Virus record (IMG/VR): IMGVR_UViG_3300042384_000447
Span: 1-24,051 of that record
Source: a virus
Strand: one strand, 5' to 3'
DNA length: 24,051 nt
Shown: positions 3,238 through 15,966 of the stretch, one piece after another
Position numbering within the stretch: position 1 is the first letter of the stretch
Layout of the letters: the number at the start of each line of letters is the position of its first letter
Translations under genes and position numbers: made by a program
Notes under the pieces: model-generated
Told to the model about the DNA's origin: nothing
The model's input: the letters and a program-made list of their open reading frames with translations, nothing else
The model's database searches: none

Positions 3238-3250
3238 ATTATATAAATAT

Positions 3251-3438: not shown

Positions 3439-3521
3439 AATTGATTGATTTTATAGTGTTTATTTATTAATAAATATTGGAATATAGATTAATTTGTAAA
3501 GAATTATATATTTATTATTGT

Positions 3522-5054
3522 ATGAAAAAGACATTTAAAATAACAGAATCAAAATTAATAACCTTAATTAAGGATATTATTAGAGAACAAGAAATGGAGG
3601 AGGTTGTAATAACACCAGAACAATATTATGACTTAATGAGAAAAGTGTTTTATAAAACAGAAGCAATACCATCATTACCACCTTTTAAAAATAAAACATT
3701 AGTGGTTTCTGGTGATTTAAAATTAACAGACCCAAAAATTAAAAAATTAGGTAAACTTAAAATTTTAGGAAAGTTAGACATTTCGCGTTCAAATATATCA
3801 TCATTAGATGGTGTTGAAGTTACTGGTTATGTTAGTGATTGGAATACACCACTATATAATATTAAACAACAAAGAATATTAAACGCAAAAATTAGTGAAC
3901 AAGAAAGTCTTAGAGAAGATGATGAATGGAACTTGAATAATACTGATGAGGTTGGTGAAATGGCACATGCGGCATTTGAATATGCGAATAATCGTTCTGA
4001 TATTACTGCGTTAACGGATGACGAACTTGAACGAGTTAATGAAATTAGAAAAACAATACAAGAATTAGAAGAAGAACAGGAAAATTTAGACACAGGACTT
4101 GAAAATTGGAATGAGTTAGATGATGATATTACAGATCGTATTGGTGAGTTAGAAGATGAACTTAATGAATTAACAGATGATAAATCAGATGTTTATGATT
4201 TTTACCCGTCTGGTCGTCATTATGATTTACACGAATATGAGTGTTTAACAGAAAATATGAAATTCGCAGTTGGAACAACTGAAGAGGCTGATAGTTCATT
4301 AAGAGTTTATTTTGAAGAATGGATTGACAACCCATTAGAATATCTTGGACCAGATCGTATATCACACTATGTTGATGCCGATATGGTTGTAGATGCTTTT
4401 GAGGATGGCGAACGAGAGTATATAGAAGAAAACCCCGAAGATTACAATATTAGTAGAGATTTGAGTTATAAACAAGAAGAAGAAATTCAAGATTACGAAA
4501 AACAAAAATTAGGGTTAGAAGTTGAACGATTTTTAATTGAAAAGGGAGGAAGAACACCATTAATTGAAGATGTGATTGATAGTGCAAAATATTTTAAATT
4601 TAAAGATTATTTGGATAATATTTTTGTTGTTGAGTTTTCAGACAAATGGGAATTATATCAAAATGGGAAAAAAGTTGAAACAATAATATATTCTGATGAG
4701 GAATTTGAAGAACAAGAAACCGATAATCAAACACGTTTGGATGAGATTGTGAGTGAAATCAGTGATATTGAGTACGAAATAGAAGAAATAAATGAAAACC
4801 CTGACGGTGATTTTAATCAGGATGAAATTTTTGAAAAGGTTGAGTCTATGTTAGAAGATATTAGATACGATCCATATGACTGGTTAAAGGATAGAGGTTA
4901 TGAGAATGAGACAATTGTTAAATTTATAGACACAGATGCTATGCTGGATGACCTAGTCCGTGACGCGGATTACGGTTCATTAAATGGTTATGATAACTAT
5001 TACGACGAAGTAAATATTAACGACACATATTATGTTGTTATGAGGATTGATTAA
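3522..5054 (+). CDS. Large acidic phage protein with ITE-type N-terminal leader and LRR-like segment, 510 aa
   Basis: The frame is open further upstream, but the ATG at 3522 gives MKKTFKITESKLITLIKDII, matching the leader seen on the lysozyme (7998) and the metallopeptidase (10558). A second related stretch, VVITPEQYYDLMRKVF, follows at residues 28-43. Residues about 58-110 look like a short leucine-rich or beta-solenoid repeat (VVSGDLKLTD, LGKLDISRSN, SSLDGVEVTG). Residues about 165-220 and 405-430 are Glu-rich and predicted coiled coil. The C terminus ends in a tyrosine-rich segment and YYVVMRID. I recognise the general architecture from uncultured Bacteroidota phages but know no function. 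The leader suggests a virion or packaged protein (inference). Confidence 0.8.
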   Translation: MKKTFKITESKLITLIKDIIREQEMEEVVITPEQYYDLMRKVFYKTEAIPSLPPFKNKTLVVSGDLKLTDPKIKKLGKLKILGKLDISRSNISSLDGVEVTGYVSDWNTPLYNIKQQRILNAKISEQESLREDDEWNLNNTDEVGEMAHAAFEYANNRSDITALTDDELERVNEIRKTIQELEEEQENLDTGLENWNELDDDITDRIGELEDELNELTDDKSDVYDFYPSGRHYDLHEYECLTENMKFAVGTTEEADSSLRVYFEEWIDNPLEYLGPDRISHYVDADMVVDAFEDGEREYIEENPEDYNISRDLSYKQEEEIQDYEKQKLGLEVERFLIEKGGRTPLIEDVIDSAKYFKFKDYLDNIFVVEFSDKWELYQNGKKVETIIYSDEEFEEQETDNQTRLDEIVSEISDIEYEIEEINENPDGDFNQDEIFEKVESMLEDIRYDPYDWLKDRGYENETIVKFIDTDAMLDDLVRDADYGSLNGYDNYYDEVNINDTYYVVMRID

Positions 5055-5082
5055 TCTATAAATTATTAATATTATTAGTGAG

Positions 5083-5862
5083 ATGGGTAGGAAAAAAAAG
5101 GTAATGTTTTTGATGGAGACAGATTGGATGTTTGACAAACCAATTGACCAAGAACATAAAGAGTATGTGTTATTATCCTATTTTCAAAAAATGGGTGAAA
5201 AATTAGATAAATTAGAATTATACCCAGGATTTATTGAGTTATCATTACATCTCGCAAATGCGCAAACGTTAATTAAAGATAAGAAAATTTTATATACGGA
5301 TAAAAAATTTAAAACTGTTGATGACGAATTATTGGTTATGGATTTAAAAATTAAAGATCTACCCCCAATGACAAGTGATGAACATGCAGAATTTATTAAG
5401 ATTTTATCATATAGTACACCAAAATTACACGAATATTTTGATATTGCAAAATCTGTATGGGAAACAGTATTTGACAATGTTGTTGTTAAAGTTAAAAAAA
5501 ATATTGATAATATAACATTAAAAACTGGTTATTTTTATTATGAAAATAATAACACTAATGTTTTATATGTTTGGGAATATGAGAAAAAACCAGCAGCAAA
5601 AGGATCCCCTGAAAATAAATTAATTATAAATTTAATTTATTCAGATGAAAAAAAGGATTTGACTATTACAAAAATAATTGATATGTTTAGTAATGTTGAT
5701 AGTGAGAAACAAAAAACACTACCGATTGTTGAAATGACAGTTAATGGTGAGTTCCCGTTAGAAGAAACATTATTACCACTATTTAAACGAAAATTGATTA
5801 GTTACATCGTACAGAAAAAAGGAATTGAGGATTACAAAAAAACAAAGGAACAATTAAAATAA
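5083..5862 (+). CDS. Hypothetical protein, 259 aa
   Basis: Begins MGRKKKVMFLMETDWMF. It is soluble, Lys/Glu-rich, with a helical N-terminal half (residues about 20-135) and a strand-rich segment after it (TLKTGYFYYENN, VLYVWEYEKK). No catalytic motif or membrane helix is seen. A weak promoter candidate, TTG at 5047-5049 with TATTATTA at 5070-5077, has the 20-base spacing common here and ends 5 bases before the ATG. The gene follows the acidic protein by 28 bases and precedes a 67-residue ORF by 5, so co-transcription is likely. Role unknown; a structural or assembly role would fit its neighbour but is not shown. Confidence 0.78.
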   Translation: MGRKKKVMFLMETDWMFDKPIDQEHKEYVLLSYFQKMGEKLDKLELYPGFIELSLHLANAQTLIKDKKILYTDKKFKTVDDELLVMDLKIKDLPPMTSDEHAEFIKILSYSTPKLHEYFDIAKSVWETVFDNVVVKVKKNIDNITLKTGYFYYENNNTNVLYVWEYEKKPAAKGSPENKLIINLIYSDEKKDLTITKIIDMFSNVDSEKQKTLPIVEMTVNGEFPLEETLLPLFKRKLISYIVQKKGIEDYKKTKEQLK

Positions 5863-5867
5863 ATAAT

Positions 5868-6071
5868 ATGAAAACAAGAACACTTAATGAATTAAGACAA
5901 GAGAAAGAGTTTGGTTACAAAAATCCTGTATCACAGAAAAATAATCAACAAGAAATTGATTTAGTAAAAACTTACAAAACAATTCAGGATTTGGCAAACG
6001 AATTCCCGAACGACGCAGATCTTGGTCGTAAAACGAGAACACTTTTAATTAGTTTAGGTCTGTATCAATAA
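5868..6071 (+). CDS. Small hypothetical protein, 67 aa
   Basis: Starts 5 bases after the preceding stop in an AATAAT context. The product is charged and probably helical, with a C-terminal segment rich in Leu (TRTLLISLGLYQ). No motif is recognised. It sits between the 259-residue protein and DUF3310 in a tight run and is probably co-transcribed with both. Confidence 0.68.
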   Translation: MKTRTLNELRQEKEFGYKNPVSQKNNQQEIDLVKTYKTIQDLANEFPNDADLGRKTRTLLISLGLYQ

Positions 6072-6083
6072 AAAACGCTTAAT

Positions 6084-6311
6084 ATGTTAGGAAAAGAAAT
6101 GGTTAACCACCCAGAACATTATGGTGGTTCAGAGAATAAATACGAAGCGATTAAAGTGATTGACGCTTGGGATCTTGGGTTTAGTTTAGGAAATACCGTA
6201 AAGTATATTTCAAGAGCCGGAAAAAAAGATAAAGATAAGGAAATACAAGATCTGAAAAAAGCGGCTTGGTATTTACAACATCATATTGAAAACTTAGAAA
6301 CTAATCGTTAA
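6084..6311 (+). CDS. DUF3310 family protein
   Basis: The 75-residue product contains the family signature in order: VNHPEHY at residues 7-13, then LGNTVKYISRAGKKD at 35-49, then DLKKAAWYL at 56-64. DUF3310 proteins are very common in tailed phages of many hosts. T7 gp1.7, a nucleotide kinase, carries a related segment, but this short version has no P-loop and no activity should be assumed. The last 11 bases overlap the end of the convergent DUF192 gene, so both stop codons lie in the shared segment, with no terminator between them. An internal ATG at residue 6 is an alternative start. Confidence 0.88.
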   Translation: MLGKEMVNHPEHYGGSENKYEAIKVIDAWDLGFSLGNTVKYISRAGKKDKDKEIQDLKKAAWYLQHHIENLETNR

Positions 6312-6648
6312 TAACAACGATATCGTTTTCTTGGATATCATATAGATCAGAAGAGCCACCCTTTATTTCAAGAACCATATCACCAAAACCTTTGTAACGT
6401 AAACAATTATTACCTTTACACGGTTTACAATTTTTATGTATTTTTGTTATAGTGTTATTGTTGATAAAGATAATATCAAGATTGACGATACAATCTTTCA
6501 TCCAAAAGGAATGTTCACCATCGGTTAAAATAAATAACATACCATTAAATTGGTTATCAAATTTTTTACCCATCATTCCATTTTGGATATCTTTGGGTGT
6601 AATCATTGTTTTTACAGTAAAGGAATTGTTATTTATTAATAGTTCCAT
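6301..6648 (-). CDS. DUF192 family protein
   Basis: The start at 6648 gives 115 residues, MELLINNNSF onward; the frame is open to 6693 but the extra 15 residues are not typical. The family pattern is clear: a helix after the first strands (TPKDIQNGMMGK, 17-28), GMLFI (36-40), FWMKD (48-52), LDIIF (57-61) and VLEIKGG (92-98). An insert with three cysteines (74, 77, 82) lies where many members carry a short Cys-containing loop. DUF192 proteins form a small beta barrel of unknown function. Many cellular members are exported, but this one has no signal peptide. Convergent with DUF3310 and overlapping it. Confidence 0.88.
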   Translation of the reverse strand: MELLINNNSFTVKTMITPKDIQNGMMGKKFDNQFNGMLFILTDGEHSFWMKDCIVNLDIIFINNNTITKIHKNCKPCKGNNCLRYKGFGDMVLEIKGGSSDLYDIQENDIVVIND

Positions 6649-6707
6649 AGTAATAAATATCATAAAATATTGAATTAATTTGGTTTTTAACAATTTTGTA
6701 GATATTT

Positions 6708-6749
6708 ATGAAATACAAAAAAACACACACCCACCCTTTCTGTTGGTAA
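6708..6749 (+). CDS. Possible 13-aa peptide before a terminator
   Basis: An ATG preceded by GATATTT opens MKYKKTHTHPFCW and a TAA. It ends 6 bases before a perfect 13-pair terminator stem. The tight placement suggests a very short gene or a leader peptide, but 13 codons can arise by chance and no good promoter was found. Listed with low confidence. Confidence 0.2.
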   Translation: MKYKKTHTHPFCW

Positions 6750-6755
6750 AACATA

Positions 6756-6797
6756 AAATCTCAAAAAATTAAAATATTTTTTTGAGATTTTTGTTTT
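6756..6797 (+). terminator. Strong intrinsic terminator overlapping the next promoter
   Basis: A perfect 13-pair stem, AAATCTCAAAAAA at 6756-6768 with TTTTTTGAGATTT at 6778-6790, is followed by TTGTTTTTAT. The TTG right after the stem is also the -33 element of the promoter at 6791. Confidence 0.8.
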
Positions 6798-6821
6798 TAT
6801 AATAATTTTTTTATATATTTG
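6791..6821 (+). promoter_or_regulatory. Bacteroidota promoter, TTG-N20-TATATTTG, leaderless geometry
   Basis: TTG at 6791-6793 and a perfect TATATTTG at 6814-6821 are separated by 20 bases. Only 4 bases (TACT) lie between the -7 element and the ATG at 6826, so transcription should begin at or within a base or two of the start codon. Confidence 0.85.
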
Positions 6822-6825
6822 TACT

Positions 6826-7098
6826 ATGAAAACAGGATTTAACATTAGAATATTACACGAAACGTTTGGTGAGTTACTAAACGAAACATTTGTTGATCAA
6901 ATACAATTTAAATTGTTTTTAAAAATGATTCATACTAGTGTTGAATTAAAACAAAATTTATCATTTTATAATGGTGATACATTTTACATTAATATACCTA
7001 GTAAAACTTTGGTTGATTGTATTATTGTCACCAACACAAATGAATTATCTTTAACAGAACAGGTTAGAAGTAAGATTGAAGCACTGGTAACAAAATAA
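6826..7098 (+). CDS. Hypothetical protein, 90 aa, single-gene unit
   Basis: Flanked by its own consensus promoter, 4 bases upstream, and a strong terminator downstream, so it is a monocistronic unit. The predicted mRNA is leaderless. The product is soluble, with helical and strand segments and no recognisable motif; a strand-rich centre (DTFYINIPSKTLVDCIIV) lies near residues 50-68. A dedicated strong promoter for so short a gene suggests it matters at a particular stage, perhaps early, but that is inference. Confidence 0.78.
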   Translation: MKTGFNIRILHETFGELLNETFVDQIQFKLFLKMIHTSVELKQNLSFYNGDTFYINIPSKTLVDCIIVTNTNELSLTEQVRSKIEALVTK

Positions 7099-7146
7099 AT
7101 TGGGTTTTTTCATTTTCCTATGTCCAAAAAATGAAATGGTGGAGTC

Positions 7147-7183
7147 AATGGGTTGTTAATTAAATTTAACAACCCATTATTTT
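7147..7183 (+). terminator. Strong intrinsic terminator
   Basis: A perfect 13-pair stem, AATGGGTTGTTAA at 7147-7159 with TTAACAACCCATT at 7166-7178, is followed by T-rich sequence. It ends the unit starting at 6826 and overlaps the last bases of the convergent lysozyme gene. The minus-strand side lacks a T-run, so it is mainly a plus-strand terminator. Confidence 0.8.
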
Positions 7184-7998
7184 AATTTTAAAATTTGACC
7201 AGGTTTAAGTTCTGTTGATTTTAAATCGTTTAGTTTAATTATGGAATCAACGGTTACTGATTTGTCATATTTGGAAGCAATTCCAGATAATGTTTCACCT
7301 GGTTTTACAACATATAGTTTAAAGACACTCGGAGAAAGACCACCACCACCAATTTGTGGTTTAGGTTTTTGTGTCTTAGTTTTTTGTTGTTTAACTTTCG
7401 GTTCAACTGGTTTAGATAATTCTTCGGCATATTTTAAGAACGCCCTTTGGTTGTTTTTCATTCGTTCGGCAACAGTTCCTTTTTTTCTTGGGTCGTCAAC
7501 ATTTGAAAAGTCAATATTCCAACCTTCAAGATATTGTTTAGCACCCAAAGACCAATTATCATCATTTAAACTTTTAACCCATTTATAACCACTTTTAACT
7601 TCACCACGATATGTCGCATTAACCAATGCTCTTTGAACATACACTGGGTATTTATCAAATTTTGGAAAAACTTTTTTAGCAATCTCTTCGTGTTTTTTAA
7701 TATCATCAGTTAATAATTGTTCGGCTTCTCTATTTGATATAATCATACCTGGTTTTACTGATGGTCCGGTATGACCCCACCCAATTGTTAACACACCACC
7801 ATAAGGTGATTTTTTACGAATGAATGTTTTTTTATTGTTTGGTGGTAATTTCGGATCCTTATCATCAAACACGTAATGTTGGTTCTTACTATTAACAACG
7901 GTTGATTCATAACCTTTAATTAAATTCCTAAATTCTGTGTCACTAACAACACTTTCAATTAACATTTTATGTTGATTTTCAGTTATTACGATTTTCAT
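7177..7998 (-). CDS. T4-type lysozyme (GH24) with C-terminal LysM domain and ITE leader
   Basis: The ATG at 7998 gives 273 residues; the frame is open to 8100, but that extension is hydrophobic and unlike the family. Residues 1-16 (MKIVITENQHKMLIES) are the leader shared with the genes at 3522 and 10558. A lysozyme domain follows: the catalytic Glu in GYES is Glu31, and the substrate-cleft signature TIGWGHTG lies at 71-78. Between them is an insert longer than in T4 lysozyme. A Lys/Pro/Gln linker (about 196-217) leads to a LysM domain (about 229-272, YVVKPGETLSGIA). It should bind and cleave peptidoglycan. No signal peptide or holin was seen nearby. The leader hints at a virion-associated rather than purely late lytic role. 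Confidence 0.92.
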   Translation of the reverse strand: MKIVITENQHKMLIESVVSDTEFRNLIKGYESTVVNSKNQHYVFDDKDPKLPPNNKKTFIRKKSPYGGVLTIGWGHTGPSVKPGMIISNREAEQLLTDDIKKHEEIAKKVFPKFDKYPVYVQRALVNATYRGEVKSGYKWVKSLNDDNWSLGAKQYLEGWNIDFSNVDDPRKKGTVAERMKNNQRAFLKYAEELSKPVEPKVKQQKTKTQKPKPQIGGGGLSPSVFKLYVVKPGETLSGIASKYDKSVTVDSIIKLNDLKSTELKPGQILKLK

Positions 7999-8010
7999 AA
8001 TGATAAATAG

Positions 8011-8041
8011 TTGTGTAATTAAAAAAAAATATCTATATTTG
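8011..8041 (+). promoter_or_regulatory. Bacteroidota promoter, TTG-N20-TATATTTG, leaderless geometry
   Basis: TTG at 8011-8013 and TATATTTG at 8034-8041 are 20 bases apart, with 4 bases (CTAT) before the ATG at 8046. The arrangement matches the promoter at 6791 base for base in spacing. It lies in the short divergent gap next to the lysozyme start. Confidence 0.85.
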
Positions 8042-8045
8042 CTAT

Positions 8046-8435
8046 ATGGAAAAAACAATATACATCGTAAGAGGATGTCCGGGATCAGGGAAATCAACAT
8101 TTGCTAAAACACTGGGTGGAATACACATTGAGGCGGATCAATACTTTGTTGATGCTGATGGTAATTACAATTTTGATGGTAGTAAAATTAAAAATGCTCA
8201 CGCTTGGTGTTTAGATAGGGTTAAAACGAATATGGCGACAGGTAGAGATAAAATAGTTGTCTCAAATACCTTTACACAAGAATGGGAATTCCAACCATAC
8301 CTTGAACTTGCAAAAGAATATGGTTACAAAACTTTCACTATTATAGTTGAAAATTATCACGGAGGTATAAATCAACACAATGTTCCAGAAGACAAAATAG
8401 AACAAATGAAAAACAGATTTAGTATAAATTTATGA
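8046..8435 (+). CDS. P-loop kinase, polynucleotide-kinase / N4BP2-like
   Basis: A 129-residue AAA-type P-loop protein. The Walker A motif GCPGSGKST is at residues 10-18. An acidic segment EADQYF at 29-34 sits where polynucleotide-kinase relatives hold the catalytic Asp. A later strand IVVSNTFTQ and the helix after it fit the N4BP2-like ATPase family, which commonly ends with the pattern seen here (VPEDKIEQMKNRF). It could phosphorylate 5' ends of nucleic acid or another small substrate; the substrate is unknown. It is the first gene after a leaderless promoter and overlaps the next gene by ATGA. A phosphatase-type HAD gene lies 2.6 kb downstream. Confidence 0.85.
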   Translation: MEKTIYIVRGCPGSGKSTFAKTLGGIHIEADQYFVDADGNYNFDGSKIKNAHAWCLDRVKTNMATGRDKIVVSNTFTQEWEFQPYLELAKEYGYKTFTIIVENYHGGINQHNVPEDKIEQMKNRFSINL

Positions 8436-9388
8436 ATAGATTAGACAAACTTAAAGAACAACATCCGGATTTAAATGTATCATTAATTGATATCATAACA
8501 TCATTGGACCCAACTGGTACTTACAAGTATACCGAGTTTTTAATTAAAAACTTTAAAAGGGATAACCAATATTATAGCCCAAATTTGGATGAACTTAAAG
8601 GTTATCTGGGAGTATTTTTGTTCGGTTCAAATGAAATTGAAGTTTTAAATGAATTTGAAAGACACTCAAGATCTAATAGAATAAAAGAAAAAGACATTAG
8701 TAAATATAAAAATTTTCTTGAGTTAAACGAACAAGTTAAGATTGCTGAAGATATTGAAAAACAAAAAGAAGTTGAAAAACAAATTTTGAAAATACACGAA
8801 GATGACACCTGGTTAGTATTAACACCTTTAAGTTTTGAGGCGTCAAGGGTTTACGGATCAAATACAAAATGGTGTACAACACAAGAAAAATATTGGGATA
8901 GATATCTAAAAACACATAGGTTAGTTTATTGTATTAATAAAAAAATTGATACTAAAGTTGCGTTTTCAAGAGATTACGGTGATGATAAATTCCAAGCTTG
9001 GACCGCAGACGATAGTGAGGTTAGTCCAATGTTTATAGATTGGATTCCGGATGAAATCTTTTTAAAGATTAGAAAAGAATTACAAAAAAATGAAAGAACC
9101 ATTGATTTAATTTATGGTGAAACCAGAAATAAACCAGTTTCTATTTCAGATATAATTAATATTCACCAAGGTAATAGTGAAACAACTAATTATCCAATCA
9201 TACTTGACAGAATAAGAAGTTTAATGGATACTAATCGTTATAATAGTAATTGGACATCTGAACAGTATAGGATACCAGTAGTAGGACCAAACGATGATTT
9301 ACCAAACCAAGGTGAATATGAAGTAACAAGAAGAATCAGTGATTACCCAAGAATAAGTGTTAATTATACTGGTGATGTTTTACCTTAA
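8432..9388 (+). CDS. WCT-motif phage protein, 318 aa
   Basis: Translation is coupled to the kinase by an ATGA overlap. The N-terminal 120 residues are helical and charged. The centre has a conserved-looking pattern: WLVLTPLSFEAS (127-138), YG, then KWCTT at residues 146-150, followed by an aromatic stretch (RYLKTHRLVYCINKK) and a strand with KVAFSRDYG. I have seen proteins with this WCT block in many large phages, without a proven function. The C-terminal 80 residues, after about 240, are low in pattern and Asn/Arg-rich. No membrane segment. Its pairing with a kinase may indicate a shared process. Confidence 0.8.
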   Translation: MNRLDKLKEQHPDLNVSLIDIITSLDPTGTYKYTEFLIKNFKRDNQYYSPNLDELKGYLGVFLFGSNEIEVLNEFERHSRSNRIKEKDISKYKNFLELNEQVKIAEDIEKQKEVEKQILKIHEDDTWLVLTPLSFEASRVYGSNTKWCTTQEKYWDRYLKTHRLVYCINKKIDTKVAFSRDYGDDKFQAWTADDSEVSPMFIDWIPDEIFLKIRKELQKNERTIDLIYGETRNKPVSISDIINIHQGNSETTNYPIILDRIRSLMDTNRYNSNWTSEQYRIPVVGPNDDLPNQGEYEVTRRISDYPRISVNYTGDVLP

Positions 9389-9400
9389 AAAATAAAAAGT

Positions 9401-10054
9401 ATGAACTTTAAAAAAATATTAACAACAGGAAAAGTATTCATAACATCGGATACACATTACGGACACAAAAATATTGTACGAGGTGTAACAAACTGGAGAA
9501 CCCAGGATGGTGAAATACCTATTGATTCAGTTAGGGATTTTGGAACAATTGATGAAATGAATGAAAGATTGGTTTATGGTATTAACAATATGGTTGGTCA
9601 AGACGACACACTAATAATGTTGGGTGATGTTTCATTTGGGGGATTTGATAATATTGGAATTTTTCTTGATAGATTGGTATGTCAAAACATTCATCTTATA
9701 TTAGGAAATCACGATATGCACATCCAGAACAATCGTGGAAACATACAGAGTAGATTTTTAAGTGTTAATCACTATTTGGAAGTGAATATTGAAGGAAAAA
9801 ATTTTGTGTTATGTCATTATCCATTACAAAGTTGGCATGGACTAAATAAAGGCGTTATCCAACTTCACGGGCATGTACACCTTAGTCCAGACAAAAAATT
9901 TGGTAAAGGTAAAAAAATGGACGTTGGTATGGACGGTAATAACTTAAACCCATATAGTATTGGTGAAATCATTAAGATTATGGATAAAAGACCAATATTT
10001 TCAGATATGGATAATGATCATCATCTGGATGATTTAGTTGGTATTATTGGTTAA
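9401..10054 (+). CDS. Calcineurin-like metallophosphoesterase
   Basis: All signature blocks are present in order: SDTHYGH (Asp17, His19), GDVSFG (Asp76), GNHD (Asn103, His104), HYP (His139) and GHVH (His158, His160). These residues bind the two metal ions of the family. The protein of 217 residues should hydrolyse a phosphodiester or phosphomonoester; the short form resembles phage and bacterial single-domain phosphoesterases, and the substrate cannot be read from sequence. It lies 12 bases after the WCT protein in the same run as the kinase. Confidence 0.93.
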   Translation: MNFKKILTTGKVFITSDTHYGHKNIVRGVTNWRTQDGEIPIDSVRDFGTIDEMNERLVYGINNMVGQDDTLIMLGDVSFGGFDNIGIFLDRLVCQNIHLILGNHDMHIQNNRGNIQSRFLSVNHYLEVNIEGKNFVLCHYPLQSWHGLNKGVIQLHGHVHLSPDKKFGKGKKMDVGMDGNNLNPYSIGEIIKIMDKRPIFSDMDNDHHLDDLVGIIG

Positions 10055-10058
10055 TAAT

Positions 10059-10481
10059 ATGGAAGACAAAATAAAAGAAAAATTAAAGGATTTAATCAAA
10101 AATGTTGGATTTAAATCAACGATAAGAGTTGTCGGATCCTTGGATAAAACATTTGAGATCTTTGATATTAAAGAACCAATGGATTTCTTAAATTTATTTA
10201 ATGATTTGGAATCGGTTCAGAGTGAAGAACGTGAAGATTGGACGTTATATCGTTATAAAAAAGGACATAATTTTATAATTTACAATAGAAAAAATGATTA
10301 TGTTCATATCAATTATGATGAAATTTGGTCAGTTTTAGAAGACAATTTTGGACTTAACTACTCTGAAACACAAGAACTTACACAGAGATGGTTGGATGAG
10401 GTCTACAATTTAAGGGGAGTCACACCATATATTCAACTTTTTGAAAATCAGCAATATAGTTGGATGAGGTCTACAATTTAA
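10059..10481 (+). CDS. Hypothetical protein, 140 aa, 3' end altered by a tandem repeat
   Basis: The ATG at 10059 follows TTAATA, 5 bases after the phosphoesterase stop; the frame is open further upstream but that part overlaps the previous gene. The product is soluble, Lys/Asp-rich, and may be mixed alpha/beta. Its last 30 codons run through a 68-base repeat unit. Because 68 is not a multiple of three, the second copy is read in another frame and ends at a TAA inside it. Without the first unit the frame would continue to ...LRGVIPTPPSNF and stop at a TAG near 10517. The C terminus is therefore likely to be recently changed. Function unknown. Confidence 0.72.
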   Translation: MEDKIKEKLKDLIKNVGFKSTIRVVGSLDKTFEIFDIKEPMDFLNLFNDLESVQSEEREDWTLYRYKKGHNFIIYNRKNDYVHINYDEIWSVLEDNFGLNYSETQELTQRWLDEVYNLRGVTPYIQLFENQQYSWMRSTI

Positions 10482-10544
10482 GGGGAGTCATACCAACACC
10501 CCCTTCCAACTTTTAGTAAACATTGGATGATATCAACAATTTAA
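10391..10544 (+). repeat. Decaying tandem repeat, two full units and a partial third
   Basis: Unit 1 spans 10391-10458 and unit 2 spans 10459-10521. Their first 37 bases (10391-10427 and 10459-10495) differ at one position. The remaining parts align less well, with gaps. A diverged third start, TTGGATGATATCAACAATTTAA at 10523-10544, matches the unit start at most positions. Unit lengths of 68 and 63 bases shift the reading frame of the gene at 10059. The third copy carries the -33 TTG and spacer of the next promoter. Confidence 0.85.
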
Positions 10545-10552
10545 TATATTTA
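10523..10552 (+). promoter_or_regulatory. Bacteroidota-type promoter, TTG-N19-TATATTTA, leaderless geometry
   Basis: TTG at 10523-10525 and TATATTTA at 10545-10552 are 19 bases apart, with 5 T residues before the ATG at 10558. The -7 element has A in place of the final G. The spacer lies in the third, diverged repeat copy. Confidence 0.65.
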
Positions 10553-10557
10553 TTTTT

Positions 10558-11010
10558 ATGAAGATCATAATAACCGAAGAACAATATAACCTACTACAAG
10601 ATATTGATGATGGGTTAATAACCTACTCAAGTATATTTAAACCTAAGATTAAGATTTTAGTTATATTTAAAAATAATGAAAATTACGAAAATCTTATAAC
10701 GATATTCAATGAGTATGGTTATGGTTTTTATGTACCAAACCAAGAATTAATAATTATTAATGGTGAAATATTTTTAAATTCTAACGATTTAACAATGGAC
10801 GATTTAAGGTTTATTGAGGCTCACGAAATTAGTCACTTACTTTTAAATCACGATGGACCAAGATCCGAGAAAGACGAAATGGATGCCGACATAGGTGCGT
10901 ACATATTATTAACAAGACATAATATTTCAACAGAACGATTAGTGGATGAATTTGAATTTAGACATAATGTTAAATTTGATGAAAAACTAACTAAAAATTT
11001 TGATATTTAA
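10558..11010 (+). CDS. Zinc metallopeptidase-like protein (HEXXH) with ITE leader
   Basis: Residues 1-15 (MKIIITEEQYNLLQD) form the leader shared with the lysozyme and the 510-residue protein. The HEISH motif at residues 89-93 supplies two His ligands and the catalytic Glu90. A downstream acidic stretch with Glu107 (EMDAD) followed by a hydrophobic helix (IGAYILL) sits where ImmA/IrrE-type (M78) peptidases place their third ligand. At 150 residues it is one compact domain, without the helix-turn-helix of phage regulators. It could process phage or host proteins. A dedicated, probably leaderless promoter precedes it. Confidence 0.8.
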   Translation: MKIIITEEQYNLLQDIDDGLITYSSIFKPKIKILVIFKNNENYENLITIFNEYGYGFYVPNQELIIINGEIFLNSNDLTMDDLRFIEAHEISHLLLNHDGPRSEKDEMDADIGAYILLTRHNISTERLVDEFEFRHNVKFDEKLTKNFDI

Positions 11011-15018: not shown

Positions 15019-15966
15019 ATGATTGGACTATTAATTTTTATTTTAGGATTAGCAATTGCTGGAGTTATTGCTTACACAACACGAGAACAAATGTTTGAAA
15101 TTGTTGAATCACGTTATGGTAATTCAGAAGAATTCAAACCATCCTGGGTGGTTAAACCATTATCAGTTTTATTATTAACAATGTTGATTGGTATGGTACA
15201 ACCATTCGCGATTGAAAAAATTGATGCTGGAAACAAAGGGTTAAAAGTTAACTTAGTAGGTAACCAAAGAGGAGTATCAAGTTATCAATACAAAACTGGT
15301 TGGGTAGTTTATAACACCTGGACAGAACAGATTTTAGAGTTTCCAATTTATCAACAACACATTGAATACGATGATCAAATTGTTATATTAAAAGGTGGAT
15401 TCTCAGCAACAATTAAACCAACATTTAATTATTCATTAAAAGAAAATGCTATTGGAGATATGTTTGTGAATTTAAGGAAACCAATCACAGATATTGAACA
15501 GTTTTGGCTTAAAAATGCAATCGTTGGTGCCGTTAATGATGAGGCCAATAAATGGGAAGTTGATAGTATATTTAATCACAGACAAGCGTTTGAAGCAGCA
15601 ATTGTAGTTGAATGTAACGCAAGACTTTCTAAGTGGTTCAATGTATCACAATTAAGAACAAACATTACACCACCAGAGGCGTTACAAGAATCAATTATTG
15701 CCAAAACAAAATCAATCCAACAAGCACAAGCGTCAGAACAACAAGCGTTAGCCGCAATTGCTGATGGTAAAAGAAAAATCGCGGTAGCAAGGGCTGATAG
15801 TGCTGAAACAGTAATCAACGCATCCGCAAAGGCAAAAGCAATGGATCTTACACAACAAAAATTAACATCACTTTATGTTGAATATAAGAAAGTTGAAAAA
15901 TGGGACGGAAAATTACCAACAACAGTTGCTGGTGGATCTGGGACATTTCTAAATATAAAACAATAA
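15019..15966 (+). CDS. SPFH/prohibitin-domain membrane protein
   Basis: The 315-residue product has an N-terminal membrane helix at residues 2-19 and a second hydrophobic segment at 48-65. An SPFH-type beta-rich domain follows. The helical part has NDEANKWEVDSIFNHR and an Ala/Gln-rich heptad stretch (IQQAQASEQQALAAIADGK), typical of the prohibitin coiled coil. A short C-terminal segment is KWDGKLPTTVAGGSG, as in phage prohibitins I know from memory. Such proteins form ring-like membrane assemblies; in phages their role is unproved, with membrane stabilisation or control of host proteases proposed. Followed by a strong terminator, so the transcript ends here. Confidence 0.88.
   Translation: MIGLLIFILGLAIAGVIAYTTREQMFEIVESRYGNSEEFKPSWVVKPLSVLLLTMLIGMVQPFAIEKIDAGNKGLKVNLVGNQRGVSSYQYKTGWVVYNTWTEQILEFPIYQQHIEYDDQIVILKGGFSATIKPTFNYSLKENAIGDMFVNLRKPITDIEQFWLKNAIVGAVNDEANKWEVDSIFNHRQAFEAAIVVECNARLSKWFNVSQLRTNITPPEALQESIIAKTKSIQQAQASEQQALAAIADGKRKIAVARADSAETVINASAKAKAMDLTQQKLTSLYVEYKKVEKWDGKLPTTVAGGSGTFLNIKQ

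Follow-up and report, generated by a model that had tools for sequence, protein, structure and literature searches.

We analyzed a 24,051-nucleotide (nt) stretch of viral DNA (IMG/VR record IMGVR_UViG_3300042384_000447; hereafter the window) in which three otherwise unrelated proteins begin with a similar short leader: MKKTFKITESKLITLIKDIIREQ on a 510-residue protein at position 3522 (+), MKIVITENQHKMLIES on a lysozyme at 7998 (-), and MKIIITEEQYNLLQD on a metallopeptidase at 10558 (+). A sequence-only reading had pointed out these ITE-type N-termini and likened them to the capsid-targeting sequences (CTS) of phage T4, which send internal proteins into the prohead. All three are present where that reading placed them, and the motif occurs far above chance. 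The window matches a stretch of the 296,330-nt IMG/VR contig G001, in which the three named proteins are 100% identical in amino acid sequence and window position 1 falls at about 39,822. A megablast comparison of the window with near phage genomes gave no match.

The internal ATGs proposed as the starts of the first two genes are likely the true ones. At 7998, lysozyme homologues are similar from the leader Met onward, and several have a stop codon immediately before that Met or one residue further upstream. The ATG at 3522 lies within a longer open reading frame (ORF) and is preceded, 14 nt upstream, by a motif found ahead of many leader genes (described below).

Leader types and their frequency

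The ITE/LTE leaders are of two types, A (MKKIIRLTESDLTRIVKRVIKE) and B (MKIIITESQYKxLIxE), and a further type is a short helix, M..IIKKILKE. In G001, the start Met is followed shortly by a loose motif (hydrophobic-x-hydrophobic-[TS]-E) in 32 of 366 genes, versus 7 of 1317 for internal Met (Fisher p = 7e-16), and the A and B profiles find 30 ORFs there at 1e-3; genes were called on overlapping stretches of G001 by a simple greedy procedure, and per-genome counts are approximate. Twelve of the 30 are members of a single paralogous family and the remaining 18 are mutually unrelated, so these ORFs represent 19 independent bodies. A scan of viral contigs gave at least 488 confirmed type A places; the type B pattern scan was counted from the matches listed, and its counts are likewise lower bounds. 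Among loci fetched from IMG/VR relatives, a Met stands at the leader start in 498 of 504 leader matches (median of 5 in-frame residues upstream), and clustering the usable bodies of 404 distinct leader proteins gives 203 clusters with no detectable similarity to one another. In an alignment of 100 representatives, conservation spans the leader and hardly extends further. The motif is commoner than chance in relatives as well, and the refutation test that the sequence-only reading set for itself on this point did not refute it.

Short-helix leaders (e.g., MNLQESIRRILRE and MKKIIKKILRE) open 13 further G001 genes. Their motif occurs in 23 of 366 first-26-residue stretches versus 5 of 2814 internal ones in G001 (p = 2.5e-9 with the ITE types removed), a statistic that is no test of a cut site because the motif includes Glu by definition. 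Another N-terminal type, MKKFLITEEEKSRILGMHKSAIAREFLGEQ, is found on G001 139186-139692, 278695-279381, and 279388-280176; it ends LGE/Q (a slash marks a cut or joint here and below) and is perhaps a longer capsid tag.

Type A leaders end at an [IL]xE site

Conservation of the type A leader ends at [IL]xE, which is the cut motif of T4 gp21. The information content per column reaches 3.2 bits at E22, drops to 1.8 at residue 23 (mostly Gln) and 0.4 at 24, and stays near 0.2 from residue 25 onward, with residue 21 nearly free. Of 106 non-redundant proteins selected by residues 1-9 alone, 97 carry [IL]xE with its Glu at 22, compared to 0.8% per position in bodies; type A loci were partly gathered by whole-leader similarity, and the sample is not fully selection-free. 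G001, which was found via the peptidase body, likewise shows the E22 boundary. There was no general excess of [IL]xE in other motif-bearing genes (p = 0.44).

The cut-site signal is weaker in type B, since [IL]xE lies at residue 15 or 16 in 35 of 92 leaders chosen on residues 1-7, and residues 14-17 hold 39 such sites versus 4.7 expected. ITE ending at residue 7 (ITE-7) fits the cut motif in nearly all type B leaders, but was itself selected for. The metallopeptidase leader ends LLQD, and ITE-7 is its sole fit to the motif.

Leader types exchange on the same bodies

On a given body, leaders of different types share one [IL]xE point of attachment, and this is where leaderless homologues begin. 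The family at 10059-10481, leaderless in the window, carries type B in G001 and relatives (..YKLIKE/NISLKEKL), type A in a single instance (G001 144152-144634), and short leaders in other members (MEKLIKKILKE/ESLKQNL, MNLQENIRRILRE/ESLKQTL). Some metallopeptidase homologues have B leaders (LLKE, IIKE); others, 52-63% identical, are leaderless and start at the body. The lysozyme homologues listed all have a B leader, and most keep [ILM]xE at its end. The joint is [IL]xE in nearly every case; the group of the window's peptidase has LLQD or LIQD.

The 10059-10481 family (VGSLDKTFEIFDIKEPMDFLNLF; about 148 residues, function unassigned) has 12 leader-bearing copies in G001 plus leaderless ones. 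A second family (window 8432-9388, ..LVLTPLSFEASRVYGSNTKWC..) is also leaderless in the window, and by eye its G001 paralogues seem short-leadered (MMKTIIKKILKEV.., e.g., 72370-73344).

The 510-residue family has type A in the window, four relatives have short leaders, and E22 does not vary (in seven homologues, despite the change of leader type). Its body has no Pfam match, and the AlphaFold model (pLDDT 76) gave no PDB match at E<=0.001 and one uncharacterised viral match; the model places a low-confidence helix at residues 9-23 ahead of the folded body. A supposed second copy of the leader on this protein, VVITPEQYYDLMRKVF, is not a leader: in homologues with short-helix leaders (LVTLTPEQYKDVL, WVDVSPEYYIDLL, WVEVDPQDYLEL), the residues aligned to it are the first strand and helix of the body. 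Because it has no [IL]xE site and is conserved as the body start in these homologues, we assign it to the mature domain.

Exchange also bears on whether type B is the same kind of signal. Type A and short leaders could be capsid tags while type B, the type on the window's lysozyme and peptidase, is a different and uncut signal; the modest fraction of type B leaders with a site at 15 or 16 fits this division, as does the retention of Gln9 beyond a cut at E7, even though Gln9 was partly selected by the search pattern. We think such a division unlikely, given that A, B, and short leaders interchange on one body family, that most members of the lysozyme family keep [ILM]xE at the end of the B leader, and that ITE-7 itself matches the motif, as in T4 Alt (see below).

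Prohead protease and capsid protein in leader-bearing phages

G001 encodes a T4-type head module comprising a large terminase, portal, prohead protease, acidic scaffold-like protein, and gp23-type capsid protein. The protease belongs to family S77 (PF03420, 78.9 bits versus a curated cut-off of 27; phrog_207, 6.9e-43). Of the 28 other leader contigs over 100 kb, 21 carry S77, as do none of 14 control genomes, and all 22 S77-positive contigs (the 21 and G001) have a gp23-type capsid gene. The seven S77-negative contigs, in which a capsid gene was sought with the capsid protein as query, are probably fragments without the head module because they gave at most one partial capsid match and no terminase match. 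Every tested leader contig with a full-length capsid gene has S77. The capsid proteins carry LINE/A, once LLNE/S, at the position of the T4 gp23 cut (FLTE/A), and most of the protease N-termini read have a similar site (IMES, IKES, LQES, or like).

G001 also encodes a Lon-like ATP-dependent protease. A propeptide or degron removed by this or a host protease, serving to activate or turn over the protein instead of packaging it, would share the sharp boundary, which suits any sequence-specific protease. We consider it improbable that the leader is of this kind, as its motif is the known gp21 consensus and recurs in these phages on both capsid protein and protease.

Two observations on the head genes stand apart. 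The G001 portal gene (L036:10873-13968, +) contains an in-frame HNH-endonuclease-like segment at about residues 229-412, perhaps an intein or insertion. G020, the 268,739-nt contig behind L150, has two S77 proteases and two gp23-type capsid genes; it perhaps represents two phages joined in assembly.

Proposed cargo and distribution

Most leader-bearing bodies have no family. Those that could be named include lysozyme and other endolysins, chitinase, a Tae4-like amidase, a SET domain, a sigma-70 factor, tRNA nucleotidyltransferase, and HNH and homing endonucleases; several plausibly fit head cargo. In a genome collection we found nine leader places, mostly on contigs of Bacteroidota metagenome-assembled genomes (MAGs; Bacteroidales, Prevotellaceae), with three in one MAG labelled Alphaproteobacteria; hosts are probably Bacteroidota, as most of the nine lie in Bacteroidota contigs. 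In INPHARED, tblastn found neither leader A nor a third, ITEEEK type (weak evidence, given the short queries), and the expanded cargo family was likewise not found there. A literature search, with preprints and most subscription papers outside its scope, returned no paper with the leader string and none combining 'capsid targeting sequence' and metagenom-.

Window features and the upstream motif

Coordinates are collected in Table 1. Elsewhere in the window are adjacent thioredoxin- and glutaredoxin-like genes (748-1342, identified by reading only), a band-7/SPFH protein (15019-15966), and an AAA_33 kinase-like gene (8046-8435) that starts close to the lysozyme start on the opposite strand.

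Table 1. Leader-related features of the window
Feature	Position	Strand	Remarks
ATATTTAT	3508..3515	+	14 nt ahead of ATG of 510-residue protein
Type A leader of 510-residue protein, MKKTFKITESKLITLIKDIIRE	3522..3587	+	Profile match; predicted cut after E22 (I-R-E/Q)
Body of 510-residue protein	3588..5054	+	No known family or fold
VVITPEQYYDLMRKVF, residues 28-43 of 510-residue protein	3603..3650	+	Body domain start, kept in homologues with other leaders
Lysozyme body, C-terminal LysM domain	7177..7953	-	PF00959, PF01476
Type B leader of lysozyme, MKIVITENQHKMLIE	7954..7998	-	Profile match; predicted cut after E15 (L-I-E/S)
TATTTAT just ahead of lysozyme ATG	8003..8009	-	
Leaderless family member, MEDKIKEKLKDL...	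10059..10481	+	Other family members with A, B, or short leaders
ATATTTAT	10546..10553	+	12 nt ahead of peptidase ATG
Type B leader of metallopeptidase, MKIIITEEQYNLLQD	10558..10602	+	Profile match; distal Glu replaced by Asp
Metallopeptidase body	10603..11010	+	Weak PF06114 (Peptidase_M78), at curated cut-off

In G001, 22 of 34 leader genes have the upstream motif, ATATTTAT, no more than 60 nt from the start, versus 52 of 332 other genes; the motif also precedes the protease, scaffold, and portal genes. It occurs 10 times in the whole window versus 8.7 expected, which is no excess; only its position is notable. It is also found at window 3243-3250, and it lies 12-28 nt before the start codons of leader genes and head genes (G001 L028-L043). 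The T4 late promoter box is TATAAATA, of which TATTTATA is the reverse complement, and ATATTTAT is perhaps a late promoter or translation signal.

Such a signal raises the question of whether the leaders have any protein function, or are a shared region around the start (a promoter or translation signal) or a remnant of gene duplication. The shared upstream motif would be expected on that account, as would the paralogous family that supplies 12 of the 30 G001 leader genes. We find it barely credible: codons at conserved leader positions vary much as they do in bodies, which largely refutes it, and the 203 body clusters have no detectable similarity. The codon pattern indicates that selection acts on the leader protein, not on the DNA.

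Interpretation

We propose that the leaders are a family of capsid-targeting propeptides that work like the T4 CTS but differ from it in sequence, and we put the probability of this at roughly three in four. The leader would draw its proteins into the scaffold core of the growing prohead. Once the head is complete, the phage S77 protease would cut after the Glu of [IL]xE, which is residue 22 of type A and residue 15-16 of many type B leaders; ITE/LTE at residues 7-9 is a possible further cut site. The freed proteins would remain in the head with the DNA and pass into the next host. In the window, the 510-residue protein and the lysozyme would be packaged, trimmed cargo. The peptidase would also be directed to the head but would probably escape cutting at the distal site, since Asp replaces Glu there. 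The suggestion in the sequence-only reading of a T4-like leader cut by the prohead protease is strongly supported in that S77 is encoded, type A has a gp21-type end, and leaders swap at the site. The sequences themselves show the leader family, its N-terminal placement and modularity, the [IL]xE boundary, the encoded protease, and the like sites on capsid protein and protease; core binding, cleavage, packaging, and delivery are the parts that we infer.

Several points weigh against this proposal. Virion presence and leader cleavage are deduced from sequence. More than half of the type B leaders, including that of the window peptidase, have no distal site, endolysins and homing nucleases are odd as head cargo, and the S77 figures cover leader contigs and 14 control genomes. 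The two nearest isolates have head genes, protease, and similar cut sites, and no ITE leader was found in immuto by profile or in Mel-JY01 among the head-region N-termini read.

Some of these points would be accommodated by an uncleaved, non-capsid docking helix that brings proteins to a common partner, such as a replication or membrane site, a chaperone, or the tail, with [IL]xE as part of the binding helix. Lysis enzymes, a sigma factor, and nucleases then need not sit in the virion, a missing distal site in type B is of no consequence, and type A residues 8-22 are predicted to form a strongly amphipathic helix (moment 0.64 versus 0.31 shuffled). Docking keeps some weight because lysis enzymes and homing nucleases are odd head cargo. 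However, it gives no reason for conservation to end at E22 plus one residue, for three dissimilar leader types all to end in [IL]xE at the body joint, or for S77 to accompany the leader, and we hold it to be doubtful.

If the leaders are capsid-targeting propeptides, there may be a large group of phages, uncultivated and probably infecting Bacteroidota, in which dozens of genes per genome, enzymes included, bear transferable, cleavable tags for head loading (A, B, and short helix), such that each virion carries a large and quickly changing protein set into the host. We regard this broader picture as evenly balanced between true and false. The enzymes among such cargo would be lysozymes, peptidases, sigma factors, and nucleases. 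The phage group is widespread, we found no cultured member, and its more than 200 body clusters are mostly uncharacterised; tagged bodies would be candidates for early host takeover and anti-defence factors. The resulting rule, that a leader plus [IL]xE marks virion cargo, would be cheap and testable.

Comparison with known systems

In phiKZ-like giant phages (SPN3US, phiKZ, 201phi2-1), head and ejection proteins are cut after Glu by a related prohead protease, and SPN3US gp53 and gp54 have identical N-termini in common (PMC5694885). These phages differ in protease family (S80), in motif (AxE/SxE), and in their mostly long propeptides. The first 30 residues of phage P1 DarB send a reporter into the head (PMC9024508). 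DarB differs in being one large antirestriction protein with no shared leader family.

The T4 N-termini that we read are MKTYQEFIAEA in IPII/IPIII, ITEA at 19 in IPI, and MAKINELLRES in gp24; the exact cuts in IPI and gp24 are presumably where the motif places them. The gp24 and gp23 propeptides resemble the leaders in their [IL]xE sites: gp24 (MAKINELLRE/S) is similar to the short-helix leaders, and the gp23 site lies at the same place in G001. Unlike the leaders, each is found on one structural protein and is not a transferable tag.

The closest likeness is to the CTS of IPI, IPII, and IPIII and the Alt propeptide, in which a short N-terminal leader on unrelated proteins ends in [IL]xE (IPII/IPIII MKTYQEFIAE/A, IPI ..ITE/A, Alt ITE-6) and S77 is found in the same phage. 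gp21 cuts Alt at ITE-6 and LTE-619 (PMC5694885). In IPIII, the first ten residues are enough for targeting and processing depends on residues 8 and 10; with Asp at 10, processing stops but targeting does not (PMC9026906). The leader sequence itself is unrelated (LTESDLTRIVKRVIKE or IIITESQYK versus MKTYQEFIAE), and the IPIII/IPII pattern MKT[YF]xEF.. was absent from the N-termini compared by eye; by this comparison, the leaders are not members of the T4 CTS sequence family. They differ further in opening many more genes per genome, in spanning more than 200 body clusters, and in comprising three interchangeable types, all of this known here from sequence. In T4, the CTS marks a few internal proteins, whereas here the tag, if our proposal is correct, would list the injected cargo directly from the genome sequence alone.

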